A program made the position numbers and the translations under genes. Shown in pieces: positions 15,562 to 64,000 of a stretch of 64,000 nt of DNA; within the stretch, counting starts at the first letter, position 1, and each line of letters starts with the position of its first letter. Under the pieces are notes generated by a model. That model was not told where the DNA came from. It was given only the letters and a program-made list of their open reading frames with translations, and did not search any database. Origin of the DNA: Albula goreensis (Eukaryota > Chordata > Actinopteri > Albuliformes > Albulidae); contig CM040748.1 in the NCBI GenBank assembly GCA_022829145.1, positions 22,959,501-23,023,500 on the forward strand. Reading direction: 5' to 3'.

Positions 15562-18500
15562 TCACTGCTTGGCCTTCTTGAGGATGGTGCCAACCGCAGA
15601 GATGACTGTGGTCTTGGTGCCGCTGGCTGTGGTGGTGACCGAGACAACGCCGGGTAGAGTGGCTGTGGTGGTCAGTAGCGCCGGTTGGGCCAGGGTCACC
15701 GGGACAGCAGAGTCCCATTTACTCTTCCTCTTCTGGGCTTCTGCAGGGAATGAGAGCAGAGAGACACATTAAACTAGGAGTCTCCTGAGAGGGGGGTGCT
15801 GCAAATGCAGGCTTTCATTTTTACCAAAACACCTACTTGAACTAATCAACCAGTCAAGATTGATCAATACTTTGTTGTGATATTACAAAAGTCTGCAACA
15901 AAACAAACAAGTAACAGATAGGTTGGACCCTGGCAATAGAAAATGACATTTCTATACAGCACTGAATAATAGTGACCAACAGATTATTCAATCACAGATC
16001 AAAAAAAGACTAGGAACTTCTAGACTTAAAAACAAGGACACCAACTGGGGCTTCATCTGTACAATGCTGACTTGCAAGACTGTCAGTATGTTAAGTGATT
16101 AATAGGAGTGGAGACTGAGGATGGTACAGGATGTGCTCATACCTGTTGCTGTGGTGCTGGTGGTGTTGGTGGTGGGGGCTGCAGCATTGGTGGTTGTGCC
16201 TTTCTTGGTGCCCGTCACAAACTCGATCTGAAACAAACATGTCAGTGGTAGCCATGGAAATTAAAGTGTGTGACTCAAAGCCCTCTCCAATTTATCCCTC
16301 TCAGCACATGTTCTTGTCAATCCTGGCAGCCAAAAATCTCATTCATGGCCTGTGAGAACTTGCATTCATCCACCCCTTCTTTGATTACTGCAGTGCACAC
16401 CTTTCTTTCAGGCGGCTTCCAATGAAGCCCGGTAATGACTTTTCATGACTTGCTCTGGAGTAAGCTTCTTTTTTTTTTTATCTGCATCCTACAACCGCAC
16501 CCATTTTCCACACCCTTCAGTTTAATAAGAATCGCAATGACGGCACACAGCACTAAGAGTTGTTAAAACATGCTATCAGATGGGCACACATACATTTTTA
16601 TATTGCAGATGAGATGGGAATAAATTTGAAGTTAACAGAAGTTGTTTAAACTTGTACTTTCCCATCCATGAATTAGGAGAGAAGGGGGAATCCAGTTAAA
16701 GAGAGGGTGTGGAGGACTGGGAACAAAAAGCTAGCATGGAGCAACACAACTCATAATTCTTTTAACACTCATCTTACATGATACATATACTCAGGAGATC
16801 AACTGATAGTACTATGGTGTTTTGAAAAGTAAACTCATAATCAAGAAATGAACACACAAGTTCTTTCAAGGCAAGCAATTGCGATTTGTGCAGTATAAAC
16901 AGCTCATCTAATTTCACAGTGTTTTCTAAAAGAGATGCTAAAGCGCTTATGTTCAGGTGAATGGGGAAGGGCCACTTGGGGCTCACCTTGGTCCTTTCTT
17001 TTTTAGCTTTCTCCAGCTTGTCCATCTCCACCTTCTGAGCTTTAGCTGGAGGGTAAGACAGAGAAACATACTGAATAAAACCACACTGCTGCAGGGCTAT
17101 AAATGGGGCAAGTTGCAGCCAATGAAAGGAAGTGAGATGACCATGAAAACAGCAACAGATTAATGTATAAAACAAAGGATGACTTGAGTACCATACCTAG
17201 GGCTTCATAGTAAGAGTCCTCAGACCAGCCATGTGGATCGAACATGTCCTAAGGCAAAAGGAGAGACAAATTCAATCAGCATGCTTTGCTTTATATCTTA
17301 ACATAACTGAAAGTCATCTTGGTACTCTGATAAAATCCTGTTCTACCACAATCCTTAACAGAAGGTGGCCATTTACATCCATCACAGACACAGAGGTCCC
17401 CTACAGAAGCCTAAGCCTTTTTTTGATTAACATTAAATGTCAATGCAAAAAAACATATTCAGTTGCTTGGGTCATTCAGAGAGAGTATTAATCAGCTTGT
17501 GGAGAAATAATTGCCTCAGGGTGTAGCAATTAATTTTCAACACTCCTACTTTAAAGATGTAATCCTATATAAGCTGTGCACTTCTTTCACACTTACATTT
17601 CTGTTCACATTCCATCAGAGGCTAATATTATAGGTGTGCATGACTATTACTGTAATGCCAGAAGACAAAGGTCACATTAGAAGACTCAGCTATCAATTCC
17701 TCCCTGAAAAATAACCAGTGACGCTGATAGTACAGACTTCATTTTATGGTACCCCTGAAACAATTCTGTCTTTCCGAAAATAGGTCCCTTCAGCCTATTG
17801 TAAATCTTGTTCTATAAAACAGCTGATGTAAAAAAAGTGGGAGTTTCAGGATTGACTGGGTGTGTCTGGTAACGTCTAATTGAAAATTATTGAAGTCAAC
17901 AGCATGCTTGCTTATCTGGCCAATATTCTTTCCAACAGCAAACTAAAGATCCATTGTTAAAATGCATATTACAACTCAGAGTCAGCCAGCAGTGGCAAAG
18001 AGATCAGAGAAGTGGAGCAGGATCAGGGAAGAGAAGCCATACATGTATAACATAGTAAATGTAAACATTCAGTAGGATGTAGCAGCACTATTAATTCAAC
18101 TTCCTGACCATAACTCAATAACTAAACTATACTGACTCACCCATCATCACAATAAATACCTAAGAAAACAGGAGGCAGTCATCAGCATGTAATTATTTTT
18201 AAAGAGGGATTCCTCATTAAAAATCTCAAATTAAGATAATAAATTAATGCACCTATTAGAACTGTGCTTTAAAAGTTCTTTTATCATGCAACAACAAAAA
18301 ATATTCATTTCAGTTGTGGGGGTATTTCATCAGCTTTTCCAGAATGAGGAATGTGCTACCATACTGATCTGTCAAGTAAGAGTAAATTCAGAATTTCAGT
18401 TGCCATATAACCATATAATCAAACATACAAGTGCACTGATCAAAAATAACATTTCTAGGAACCACCAGAGGACATCATGAATATGAGAATGGCCAGCAGT

Positions 18501-30044: not shown

Positions 30045-33000
30045 TCAGAATGCCACATAATACTGCCACCGTGTTACCTAGCAACTGAGGGCACATCCAA
30101 GCATTGTCCTGGAGGGGAGGGAGAAGGGGAAGTACCAAGTGCCTGAGCATAAAGGGGAGGCAAAGGAAGGGTTGGGGTGGTGGTGGGTTACGTAGGAGGA
30201 GGAGAAGGGGAGATGTACAGTAAATCAGAAAAACAAATGGCTTTTGGGCAGCAGACTGCCAGGACCTTCAATAAGGTTTCATTCTCCCATGAAAGACAAG
30301 CACATCAATACAGCACACAATTCTGCAAAAACTGCCTGCGTTCCGCAGTACTGCCTCTTCACTGCCAGGGAGAAATGAGGTGGGGTGGGGTGTACTGCAG
30401 GGGCTCTCTTTTTTCTCCCACAACCCAACATATCACAGTGTACTCCAAAATGTGAAAAGAACCCTGTAAGCATGGGCTCTCTTTCCCCACTGTCTCAGGC
30501 TTCTCCCCATAAGCAGAGGAAAAGCATAACGACACCAGCCAAAGAAAACTGGAGCTGGTACAGAGTAGTTTGTTTTTGCACCTCTTTTAACACAGCACTG
30601 CTGTTTCTACACATAACATCATGACGTGGGGTGGGGTGTGGTGCTGCCATTTTCATGGGTTGACAAAACAGGCACAAGAATGACATGCACACACCTGCAG
30701 GGGAGCGTGTGAGAGGGGGTAAGGAAACCTCCATTTTGCCAAACTGTGCTATAAAAATATACACTAGAGCTTATTATTTAAGAATGAATAAAATTCTGAA
30801 CACATTTAGCTAGCTGCCAACTTAAACTGAATGCATTTACAACGGACCTCAGATCCTCATTCGCATTAGTATTACTGCTCTCACTCTCAGACAGTTAAGG
30901 GTTTTAAACAAAAACTGTATCCCCAGAAGACAGGATCCATGTACGTTTGAAACTACAAAGCAGAATCCCAGAGCTGCTCTGGATTTCACGCCAACTCTTT
31001 TGTTTGTTTATCAGGTTTCAGGCCAAGAGATAGGATACATCCTTGCAGAGGAAGTTGGTATCTCGGAAATGTATGGGACTCAATAGAATGGTGTCACAAA
31101 CCTGGCACAGAATTCCACTGGACAGCCGGGAGGGATTGAGCTGTTTATTCTGACTCATCAGCACCTTCTTAACAGTGAAAGCAGTACAAGTGACACATTC
31201 AGATATTTTTCCTGAGAATGAACAACATGTGCAATGAGGTGCAATGTTCAGATGGGGACACAAAACACTTTGAAAATGCAACACAAAACTGGAAAATGCT
31301 TTTACTCCCTGGGTCAGGAAGCAAGGCATGCTATATTCCCTGACAGAGCAGCATGTATAAATCAGGGTTGTGCAATCGCTCACCCCATTTCTTAATCGCT
31401 TACAGCAATAAACCTTCGTGGGTGTGTTTCCAATGCCAGAGCAAGGATTTTACCAGACTCGGAGCTTGTGTTTCTTTAACCCCTGAGGTTTCTTTTATTT
31501 GTGTTAAATAAACTTGAACCCTAGGCCTTAAAAAAACACACAAAAAACATACAAGAGCCACAATTCTTCCCGCGCTATTCTCCTCATGTTTATTTCCAAT
31601 GTGAACAATCTCACACAATAGAAGCATGAAATGAGAGCCACGTGCTGATATGTTAGGCGCGGCACTCTTTACATCTGGTGCACGTATCAGAGAAGGAGAA
31701 CAGGTGGTACTTGGCCCAGCCTAAGGCTGCTTGTGCTTGTCCTTTTCTCTGGGTTCACACAAGGAAGCAGCCCAACTGGACACAGTGTGCTTACAAATAG
31801 ATACTATTAACTTGCCATAAGAGTCAGAAATAAACATCAAGCCAACCATGAAATAACCTCAAACACAACAGGGCACTGAGCTCCTGAGCCTCCAGAGTCA
31901 AACGAAGCCCACCCAAATAATCAGCCATGCCTCCATCCAACAAAAACAAGCTGAGGTCAGGAGGGCTGCAGACAAACCCACAGCAGCCAAACAGTTACTG
32001 CCAGCCAGGCCTGTACAAACACAACCCCTCCCTGATAAAGATGCAATAGCCTTCCACAACAGAAGCAAGTGCTAGTTAGTCTCATTTCCAGGCACTTAAG
32101 TTCTGATACAGCGTTTGGATGACTTCATTAACTTTTCTGGCCTTGGCTTCCTGAAAACTAATCAGTGTCAGTGGATTTCTAAAGGTGGATTATGTTGGCT
32201 CGGGAAACAACATTTCATTCAGTCCTGAGACTCATGAGCCTGTTCGCATGAGAACAATCCGCACTCAGAACAAACTAGCCACAGGATTATTAGCATTTCA
32301 CATCCCCAGAAGATGGGCACTGTTCTACTTCTGAAAAGCAGTGGGTCTTGTGGTTATAAGCCTGACACATGAGGCTACAACAACAACCCTTGTGGCCCAG
32401 CCCTCCCCTCCTGCCAGCCATCTTCTAACTTCTGGTCCTTCCAACCACTACTGAGGACTACTGCGCCCTCTGGACACTACAGAGGACTGCTGCACCCTGC
32501 AGCCACTACAAAGGACTACTGTGCCCTATGGTCACAACAAAGGATCACTGCGCCCTCTGGACAATACAGAGGACTACTGCGCTCTCCGGCCACAGCAAAG
32601 GACAACTGCACCCTACTGCGCTCTCCGGCCACAGCAAAGGACTACTGCACCCTAATGCGGCCTCCGGCCACAGCAAAGGACTACTGCACCCTACTGCGCC
32701 CTCCGGCCACAGCAAAGGACTACTGCACCCTACTGCACCCTCCGGCCACAGCAAAGGACTACTGCACCCTACAGCACCCTCCGGCCACAGCAAAGGACTA
32801 CTGCACCCTACTGCACCCTCCGGCCACAGCAAAGGACTACTGCACCCTACTGCAGCAAAGGACTACTCCCCTACTGCACCCTCCGCCACAAAGGACTACA
32901 AAGGACTACTGCACCCTACTGCACCCTCCGGCCACAGCAAAGGACTACTGCACCCTACTGCACCCTCCGGCCACAGCAAAGGACTACTGCGCCCTCCGGC

Positions 33001-39384: not shown

Positions 39385-39390
39385 TTTATT
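39385..39390 (-). terminator. Candidate SMIM6 poly(A) signal
   Basis: AATAAA on the minus strand, about 530 bases past the SMIM6 stop and about 800 bases upstream of the SAP30BP start. It fits the end of the SMIM6 transcript. Confidence 0.5.
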
Positions 39391-39919
39391 ATGCCAACAA
39401 TATGAAAAACATTAACTTTTCAAATTTTGTTCTTGTTCCTCTTGTGGATCACGCTTAATATTACTGTATGATCTGGACTAGCTCTTTGCTGAATACACTG
39501 GTACAGATAGATTTGACAATAGTTTACTTGAGTCATGGACATTCTTATTTAGTTTTGATTACATATGACAGAATGGATGGCAAGCGAAATGCCATCCAAT
39601 GCAGGCACACAATTATGTGACAGCAGCTGATGAAAGTTGAATACTGTTGGCACAGCTCATAGGAGTAACACAGATCCTTCTACAATGGTTTAGGATACAA
39701 GCAGTATTAATCATATGTGGTTCACCTGAGCAGGAAATACAACACCTTCAGGTCAGTCTTCAGGTTTGTCAAGCTTTAGATGAAGTCCTGTTATGTGCTT
39801 GGTCATGTATGATTAAAGTAATGTCTATATGACACTGGTGGTGTCCAAGGTATCCAAGGTATCCTTGTGCATAGCTCCTGTTCAGGACACCAGCGGACAC
39901 TGCAGGTGCAGTGGGGTAT

Positions 39920-40134
39920 TTAGAGCACCCTGTTCCTATCCCTCTTCTTTCTGCTGGCAGTGCAGCATCCATAAATCAAAGCAAAGAGCAGCAGGGCTAG
40001 GAACCCTGCCAGGAAGGCTGCTATGACAACTGCACCACCCAATGCCCAGGGCTCAACCTGCATCCGATGCAGAGCCCACTCCCCCCACTCCTGCACTGTG
40101 CCATCCTGGCCAGGTGGCTCTGGTCCACTGGAGG

Positions 40135-40175
<41 letters not shown>

Positions 40176-41131
40176 GACAGAGAGAAAGAGAGAGAAAATT
40201 AAATAAAGCTACATAACTGAGGTGAGAAGGAGTGGGATTTTGTTCATTAAGCTATGGTATTTGAACAGTTAAACGTAATTTTGAATATTATATATACCTT
40301 ATTTGAGGTTTCACACCCCTTCTCTGGAAAATGTGATGGAGCCTACTTTGGAGTCTCCTCCTAGAGCCTCCTTTGGAATGTTTGTAGCTAAAATTAATGT
40401 GGATTTAGCTCCAGGTGAAATGTAATTGGGGGGAGGGGGACATCCTATCATGCAGTATTACTATTTTGAAAGATACTGATCACTTCCCACCCTGAATCCT
40501 TCAGATGTCAGGAAACTCCAGTGCCTCAGCACAGTGATGTCAGTGTAGTGCTGTTGGAGGTGCTGTTCTTTAGGTGACACAACTGAGGTCCTGACCCACA
40601 GTGGACATTAAAGATCCCATTGTTCATTAAAACATCCTTGTCAAATTCCCATAACAATCTGACTATTTACATCTGGCCACCTAAATAACCCTATATGTAA
40701 TGTAACCCCTTGAAATCCCTATCCACATTGAATCCTCAGGTCTTCATTGCAAAGGAGTTGAATTCTCAGTTCACCTAACCTGGTTAAGTAAAGGATGAAT
40801 GAAAAAAATTAGTCTCTTCTAGTCCGCATAGTTCACATGCTCAGCTTTGGACCTTGGTAAGAGCTTGTGGTACATTTTTGAAAGTAGAAAAAATATGGAG
40901 GAAATTGAATGATTTATTTTTTTTAGTTTTTCTCAGTAAAACTGAAGAGCTATAAGTCGTAAATATGCACAGGAAGCGTTATATAGTGTACTGCTTTACA
41001 TTGATATTCATATATTTTTTCTTGCCAACTGTTTTATATGAGTTTCAAAAAACATCCAGTTTTATATGACTTTCATTATATTAAAACATTAAACCTTGTG
41101 CTCATTCATTTACTCACCTCTCAATGGTCAT
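39920..41131 (-). CDS. smim6: SMIM6/endoregulin-like membrane micropeptide (two exons, 73 residues)
   Basis: Mammalian SMIM6 (endoregulin) is a single-span ER micropeptide that inhibits the SERCA calcium pump. Exon 1 codes from 41131 to 41118 (ATG ACC ATT GAG AG, donor GTGAGTAA). Exon 2 is 40127-39920 (acceptor CCTCCAG, stop TAA). The split Ser codon AG|T joins exactly, giving 222 bases. The protein has a polar N-terminus with two Trp (EWGEW, residues 18-22), then EPWALGGAVVIAAFL, one membrane span at about residues 34-58 (ending LLLFALIYG), and a basic tail TASRKKRDRN. The pattern PWxxGGxAVI...LLLFAxxYG matches human SMIM6 as I remember it. Its position between SMIM5 and SAP30BP in the same direction is that of the human locus. 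The ATG has A at -3. The human tail is acidic, so the basic tail differs. SERCA binding is inferred from the family. Confidence 0.85.
40139..40196. repeat. GA microsatellite beside a splice acceptor
   Basis: (GA)n on plus equals a (TC)n tract on the SMIM6 sense strand. It lies next to the exon 2 acceptor and may serve as an extended polypyrimidine tract. Confidence 0.9.
40500..40745 (+). repeat. Dispersed repeat fragment related to 26425-26700
   Basis: It contains CCAGTGCCTCAG, GGTCCTGACCCACAGTGGAC, ATTAAAGATCCCAT and ACATCTGGCCACCTAAATAA. These words are shared with the minus-oriented copy in SAP30BP intron 3. The boundaries are approximate. Confidence 0.45.
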
Positions 41132-42559
41132 GTTGCTCGTGCTCTGTGAGTGTTGTACAACTGTATGTATGTGGAGGTGAAGGAGAGAGGCGGTGGCTGT
41201 GCAGTCATATAGTTCACATACAGTTCACAGAGTGGTGCAGCCCCACTTCCACATTCCTCGCTGTAACTGCTCAGGTGGTGCTGAATGAGTTGTCCTTTTC
41301 AGAGTCTCCACAATCTGTGCCAATCTCTTCTGAGCCTGTCTGTCTCCTGGATTTGGATTCACTCAGGTTATGAAGGTCTATTCAATCAAGGGTTGTGTCT
41401 GTTTCGGCTGTGAGCGTTTCTGCTGTGCACCAGGAAAAGGGACTTGAGTTAATGTTTACCAATAATATTGACATAGTCATAGGTGAGGCTGGGCTGTTTT
41501 GTTTAGCTAAAGAATAAAGGGACACGTACACAGTTCACACTCAACTTTTACCAGTAACACAGAAGGCATACTGAGTTATTATTGGTCTATATGTCTATAT
41601 GTTATGTTGGAGAAGTTTATGTTTATTTTCAAAATCATGGCATTTAGAGTGCTTTGTCACTGTCTAACACAATGTTTACAGAGATTTAAAAACAAGGATT
41701 TAAAATATTCATATGTTCAAAACCATTTTCAAAGGTTTTGTTTGCATGTATTTGATTGTATTTTCCTTAAATTTAATGAGAAAAATAAAATCTAAAAATG
41801 ATTCCCAAGTTTGGGGGACCAAATATGAAGAGCAGTATAATGAATCACATTTGTTGTTAAATTAAAAAATCTTTATTTGCACTTAGTAATCACAATATAA
41901 AGCTAAGCCAATATGCACTCTTCCATCAACATTCACCAAAACATCTGAGAAGAATATCTGGCATAAACTGCACATGTTGACACGTACACGTCCTCATACG
42001 TACGTAGTTGCACAAATAAAATATGCTCTATAATTTTAGGTAGACAGACAAGCAGATATTGACAAGCTAATACTATACACAGTACAGAAGACACAGGGAA
42101 ATCCAGCAATTCCTGATTCATTCATTGTATTGTAAAAGTCCAGGCAAAATGTGTTCGCTGTGGCTATGAAATATGTTCATTCCAGTTGTGCGGAAACAGT
42201 CTTGACACAATACTATTTTATTGCATGTATGTTACTTTCATAAGTGACTAGGGTCTGTTTTGCTAGTTGCTCTTTTGATTTGTTAAGATTTGCTGCCAGT
42301 TCCTTTCCTCTGAAGCTGGACCTTGAGGTCTGTCTCTCTCTGGACTATTCCACCTTTCCCTAATCATATCTAGTACTTGTGACCATAATTAAAAGTAGGC
42401 AATTCTTTGGGGTTAAAAATCCTTCATGTCACTCTGATCACAGGGCAGTCTTTGTTACATTGTAGCTGCAGAAATTGGTAGCTTTCTTTCTACTGCTTAA
42501 AGATTAGCCCTCAAAAGTCAAATTTTCCTGACATTCCATCTATGAACAGCAGAGGGCAG
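41132..42559 (-). other. SMIM6 upstream region / space before SMIM5
   Basis: This stretch should hold the SMIM6 5' leader and promoter, including a possible acceptor (ACATACATACAG) about 30 bases before the ATG. No TATA box or clear first exon is visible. AATAAA hexamers on minus near 41871 and at 42217-42222 could end a longer SMIM5 transcript. Confidence 0.4.
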
Positions 42560-43238: not shown

Positions 43239-44021
43239 TTAGGCTTTGCCACAGCAGCAGCAGTGTATACAGGACAGTACAATCATGAGCAGAAAGGTGG
43301 CTGCAAGAGAAAATACAAGAGTGTCAATGATTACAGCTTTCTGCTCCTGAAGTTGGCAGGTGAGGTTACTGCTGGATGTCAATTAGTTAGGTAGAGCTCG
43401 GGTGGTGAAAATTGGGGAAAAATGTGGCTAAAACCAAAAATAAAAAAAGGAGCAGTTGTTCAAAATATCTAATGTTTCGACGAAAAGAGTGTGTTTTGCC
43501 TGTTAAACTGATTTGAGACAAAAAACGCAGCACCCTAGGAAATGAAAGAGGATACACACAGTGCTCAATAGTCCGCACAATCCTATTCAAGTAAATTCAC
43601 TTGCCTAAAGAATATAGAAAGATATATAAGCTATAAAGATATTTACAGAACAGGAAAAGGCTAAATTAATGCATAGAAGTACACAACACTTTCCTCAGAG
43701 TCAGGCATTCAGCCTGAAGTGAGCTTGAGAATTGTGATTCTGAAGGAAATCCACAGACATACAGGGTTGTGTGGGGCTGAGATGTGTGCGAAAAAAAAAA
43801 AAAGCTCAGGAATGCTGTCTCTGAATCAACCTCATAACTGGGCGTTTTTGTAACTACTAGGGAGTCAACTGCATGTCCCCCTCCACCCCTCCCTGCGGCT
43901 CACCAATGAAGAGTATGAGGACGAGGAATGCTCCAAGCTCCAGTGGGTTGGCTTGAGGTAGGCCCTGCAGCTTGGTCCACACCTTATGAAGCAGCTCCAG
44001 CACTTCTTCTCTGGCATCCAT
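43239..44021 (-). CDS. smim5: SMIM5 small integral membrane protein (two exons, 59 residues)
   Basis: Exon 1 codes from 44021 to 43904 (donor GTGAGC) and exon 2 from 43300 to 43239 (acceptor CTTGCAG, stop TAA). The split codon G|CC gives Ala40 inside the membrane span. The peptide starts MDAREEVLELLHKVWTKLQG as an amphipathic helix. LPQANPLELG follows, then a single hydrophobic span at about 27-51, and it ends CIHCCCCGKA. The Cys cluster at 50 and 53-56 is a plausible palmitoylation site. Human SMIM5 shares LQRLPQAEPVEI and a CSCCC cluster, from memory. An ATG nine codons upstream is in frame but lies across a better acceptor (TTTACAG, ending at 44037), so Met at 44021 is preferred and a 5' non-coding exon is likely. 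The function of SMIM5 is not established. Confidence 0.88.
43301..43903 (-). other. SMIM5 intron
   Basis: This phase-1 intron of 603 bases contains nothing recognisable apart from a short poly-A near 43791-43804. Confidence 0.75.

Positions 44022-55517: not shown

Positions 55518-64000
<8,483 letters not shown>

Follow-up and report, generated by a model that had tools for sequence, protein, structure and literature searches.

The locus examined here raises the question of whether a relative of SMIM6, the gene for endoregulin, is encoded in this DNA and, if so, whether the action of mammalian endoregulin on SERCA can be carried over to its product. The window analysed was a stretch of 64,000 nucleotides of Albula goreensis DNA. 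An earlier note on it had proposed a 73-residue frame built from two exons, with a split Ser codon, consensus splice sites and a single membrane span, and all of these were confirmed from the letters. The proposed gene comprises the following features:

41128..41208, minus strand: upstream open reading frame of 26 codons, its TGA overlapping the proposed start codon (ATGA)
41118..41131, minus strand: proposed first coding exon, 14 nt, ATGACCATTGAGAG, from ATG to donor, encoding MTIE and two bases of Ser5
40128..41117, minus strand: proposed intron, 990 nt, GT-AG
39920..40127, minus strand: second coding exon with TAA stop, containing an SMIM6-like PWxxGG motif, a membrane span and a basic tail
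39385..39390, minus strand: possible polyadenylation signal, the first AATAAA downstream of the stop

When ATGACCATTGAGAG (41131-41118, minus strand) was joined to 40127-39920, one open frame of 73 codons plus a stop was obtained, and the product (MTIES...RVL) has 73 residues. The Ser5 codon is divided between the exons as AG and T. The donor reads GAG/gtgagt and the acceptor cctccag/T, with 40127 as the first base of the second exon. The protein contains one hydrophobic span, residues 37-57, with PWALGG before it and GCCTASRKKRDRNRVL after it. Going upstream in the same frame, a stop codon is met 96 nt before the proposed ATG. The GC content of the second exon was 57.7%, the 98.7th percentile of stretches of the same size in the window. 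Between the stop codon and the AATAAA lies a variant, AGTAAA, at 39528.

A CT microsatellite (40138-40195; 29 copies, 89% matches) supplies the bulk of the acceptor's polypyrimidine tract. Its length may therefore vary, and such variation may affect the splicing of SMIM6.

All comparisons with human proteins used assumed sequences of those proteins. Candidate residues 31-63 aligned ungapped with human SMIM6, with 14 of 33 positions identical. The score of this core was reached by none of 20,000 region-wise shuffles, which permuted the residues of the motif, of the span and of the tail each among themselves, and 14 identities were reached by one of the 20,000; for the membrane span alone, the score was reached by 8 of 20,000. 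In a search with the human query and without composition correction, the second exon was the top match of the whole window (42% identity over 33 aa, E 1.25e-6). With composition-based statistics, it was not among the best five matches, the top one (E 0.45) lying in an exon of SMIM5. The N-terminal 30 residues showed no similarity to human SMIM6 (score reached by 4,281 of 5,000 shuffles); similarity in this part is not known to be a defining feature of SMIM6. In searches of a structure database by sequence, the lowest E values were 1.3 with the candidate as query and 0.87 with human SMIM6, and a scan of prokaryote contigs for relatives gave 333 stretches that fit the pattern, none of which was confirmed.

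The genes around the second exon were located on the minus strand as follows:

43239..44021, minus strand: SMIM5, read as 59 aa from coding exons 44021-43904 and 43300-43239, PF15831 at 61 bits
15565..38582, minus strand: SAP30BP exons, eight tblastn rows with human SAP30BP

SMIM5 (44021-43239) thus lies upstream of the second exon and the SAP30BP exons (38582 to 15565) downstream. Six of the SAP30BP rows, between 15565 and 21780, had E values from 5e-19 to 9e-7. The first-exon match at 38582-38514, the nearest to SMIM6, was weak (64%, E 0.021), as was the match at 26104-26000 (35%, E 0.040). A Pfam scan of four single SAP30BP frames gave none past the cut-off, with 17045-17248 touching HCNGP at E 0.29. 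An integrin beta exon was found on the minus strand at the far left of the window (Pfam Integrin_beta, 37.2 bits), which we take to be ITGB4, and a CDR2L-like exon on the plus strand at 62492-62665. The human gene order is presumably SMIM5, SMIM6, SAP30BP, ITGB4. The position beside SMIM5 and SAP30BP that had been put forward was thus borne out, with all three genes on the minus strand and with the nearest SAP30BP match weak (E 0.021). PMC7449091 places SAP30BP at 17q25.1 and gives RECQL5, SMIM6, ITGB4 and SMIM5 as the other eQTL genes of an SAP30BP-associated SNP, a sharing that shows nearness, not order. A tandem array at 32440-32995 (CTACTGCACCCTCCGGCCACAGCAAAGGA...) has repeat units of roughly 29, 58 and 39 bases, and several of its reading frames are open.

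Because the PWxxGG motif and the membrane-span core are combined with a shared strand and close neighbourhood with SMIM5 and SAP30BP, the locus is probably a fish SMIM6 orthologue, and the earlier identification from the motif and span core was supported (14 of 33 identical, 0 of 20,000 shuffles reaching the score). In human SMIM6 as in the candidate, a membrane span comes after the PWxxGG motif, and both genes sit between SMIM5 and SAP30BP, in human by the presumed order given above. They differ in the N-terminus, which is longer in the candidate and unlike that of the human protein, and in the tail, which is basic (+5) in the candidate and acidic (-5) in the human protein, with the predicted orientation reversed. 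Apart from one difference of interest that can be put to the test, the candidate would be an unremarkable orthologue. A frameshifted acidic tail was considered and rejected: the frame continuing ...MDAALPAERRGIGTGCSKYPTA... is unlike the human tail, and so is the other frame, which, read by eye, stops at ...HCQQKEEG with a net charge of -1. In PMC10199267, human SMIM6/endoregulin (P0DI80) is given with 62 aa and the mouse protein (Q3U0I6) with 56 aa.

Without composition correction, the neighbouring SMIM5 of the window matched the second exon (36% over 33 aa, E 6.8e-5), at a score reached by 2 of 3,000 shuffles; with composition-based statistics, the second exon was not among the best five matches of the SMIM5 query. 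The Pfam family PF15831 (SMIM5_18_22) matched the candidate at 21.7 bits over columns 17-53 and human SMIM6 at 28.2 bits over columns 19-52, both below the curated cut-off of 29.3, whereas the SMIM5 of the window reached 61 bits over columns 2-53. The candidate also gave weak Pfam matches to DUF4605 (E 0.035) and, at E 0.25, to a plant cysteine-rich domain, which were discounted because neither reached the cut-off. The candidate and SMIM5 share the 33-residue similarity through the span and the cysteines after it, and their charge runs the same way, though more weakly in SMIM5 (N-terminus -2, tail +1 as read). The span of SMIM5 is interrupted by a phase-1 intron, whereas that of the candidate is uninterrupted. 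From this likeness, the candidate and SMIM5 seem to be related by an old tandem event, with SMIM5 an apparent paralogue. An SMIM6 relative is thereby placed in this window and tied to its neighbour.

Several other readings of the locus were weighed; they overlap and are not mutually exclusive, so that their probabilities do not add up to one. That the frame is open by chance, with no gene present, is barely credible. Six of the 207 stop-to-stop frames of at least 68 aa in the window reach the candidate's level of hydrophobicity, the candidate included, and segments resembling the start exon occur near 92 of 3,352 arbitrary positions; all five of the other 206 frames that are equally hydrophobic, however, carry a simple-repeat run, and the core homology lies far outside the shuffles. 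It is also quite improbable that the gene is an SMIM5/SMIM22-like paralogue at the SMIM6 position and not a one-to-one orthologue of endoregulin. The PF15831 match, the similarity to the SMIM5 of the window, and tail cysteines and basic residues like those of SMIM5 and SMIM22 speak for such a paralogue. Against this, human SMIM6 scores 80 with the candidate, compared to 67 for the SMIM5 of the window, and PWxxGG is common to the candidate and human SMIM6.

The choice of the coding start was more evenly balanced. Start-exon candidates were defined as phase-compatible segments from an ATG to a donor of at least 4 bits within 3.2 kb upstream, with an assumed donor matrix, and six were found. The donor of the chosen exon scored 11.3 bits, compared to 5.3 for the next, and its ATG carries A at -3. 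Of 3,352 arbitrary positions taken from both strands, 92 had an ATG-to-donor segment with an equal or better donor in the preceding 1.2 kb, so the start exon is plausible but falls short of proof. A smaller but appreciable chance is given to the same gene having another first coding exon or start, either a further upstream exon or the internal Met27, which is in frame and would yield a 47-residue product. The lack of similarity between the N-terminal 30 residues and human SMIM6 is in keeping with such a start, as is the reliance of a 14-nt coding exon on splice signals; the lead of the chosen donor over the runner-up and the weak context of Met27 (C at -3 and C at +4) argue against it. The 14-base start exon of the earlier note therefore stood as the best splice candidate found, whereas homology lent it no support, and the splice signals moderately favour it as the true coding start. 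Splicing of the first coding exon of SMIM5 to the second exon was rejected, since the SMIM5 donor is in phase 1 and the exon needs phase 2. The 26-codon frame (41208-41128, minus strand) counts as an upstream open reading frame if the transcript begins upstream of it.

The basic tail pointed out earlier proved real in the sequence. The net charges of the candidate were -5 in the N-terminus and +5 in the tail, compared to -3 and -5 in human SMIM6; up to 15 residues from the span, the corresponding values were 0 and +5, and -2 and -5. Under the positive-inside rule, an acidic N-terminus and a basic tail predict a luminal N-terminus and a cytosolic tail. By the charge rule alone, the candidate would thus be inserted the other way round from human endoregulin, for which PMC8396278 describes 62 aa with a cytoplasmic part (1-25), a predicted span (26-48) and a luminal tail (49-62).

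The product would be a micropeptide some 73 residues long that crosses the membrane once, with a hydrophobic helix (residues 37-57) that may pack against a partner inside the membrane. Judged by charge, its acidic N-terminus would lie in the lumen and its tail in the cytosol. By comparison with known motifs, two membrane-adjacent cysteines beside the basic stretch of the tail may be S-acylated, and the overlapping R-x-R motifs (in the R-D-R-N-R stretch) may act as an arginine-type ER retention signal. AlphaFold2, run on the second-exon frame alone as one sequence, gave a mean pLDDT of 77.4, with a long helix at model residues 29-69, corresponding to 32-72 in the numbering of the full 73 residues, as well as a short helix at 13-24. 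This model adds little beyond a helical span.

The SERCA regulins PLN, SLN, MLN, ALN and DWORF are single-span micropeptides like the candidate, yet none of the five resembles it beyond shuffles. Their scores were reached by 2,294 (PLN), 2,889 (SLN), 2,278 (MLN), 330 (DWORF) and 1,708 (ALN) of 3,000 shuffles, so that even DWORF, the best of the five, did not stand out. Residues 37-56 contain no polar residue, with the register to PLN Asn34 uncertain; according to PMC8087094, published and automatic alignments disagree on the register to PLN. Given the opposite tail charge and the orientation that it suggests, the function of the mammalian protein, which slows a calcium pump, should not be taken for granted in the candidate. 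The reading as a SERCA regulator in the earlier note thus rests on inheritance from the mammalian protein, and drew no support from the regulin comparison, from residues 37-56 or from the charge pattern, which predicts the reverse orientation. SERCA inhibition would be possible by descent only, unsupported by the sequence features tested, and is considered rather unlikely.

Equally doubtful is the more specific alternative that the orthologue inhibits SERCA as mammalian endoregulin does, with a cytosolic N-terminus, a luminal tail and the tail charge as a harmless change. The homology of the membrane span to SMIM6 is in its favour, and human ELN lowers the Vmax of SERCA in reconstitution (3.1 vs 4.0, as stated in PMC8396278). 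It is opposed by a tail of +5 where the human tail is -5, by the alignment of the human span residue Thr33 with Ala45 in a stretch devoid of polar residues, and by the failure of any of the five regulins to stand out from shuffles. Conversely, the orientation of SMIM6 might differ between vertebrates, the ancestral form, seen here, having an SMIM5-like cytosolic basic tail, and SERCA regulation having arisen only toward mammals as the tail became acidic and the peptide reversed its orientation; this is more speculative still. The charge reversal offers a direct test of whether the action of endoregulin on SERCA is ancient or later. No paper in the open-licence literature searched named both endoregulin and teleost, and four there name SMIM6 and zebrafish; an annotation or description of SMIM6 from fish in other sources is quite possible.

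A minor observation concerned the end of SMIM5 (43239-43300, minus strand), which as read terminates in CCCCGKA and a stop, while in another frame, read by eye, it runs on as KYQAARVQPLHPL. This continuation resembles the human SMIM5 tail. SMIM5 may have been shortened by a difference of a single base close to the AAA at 43247-43245, whether real or from the assembly.
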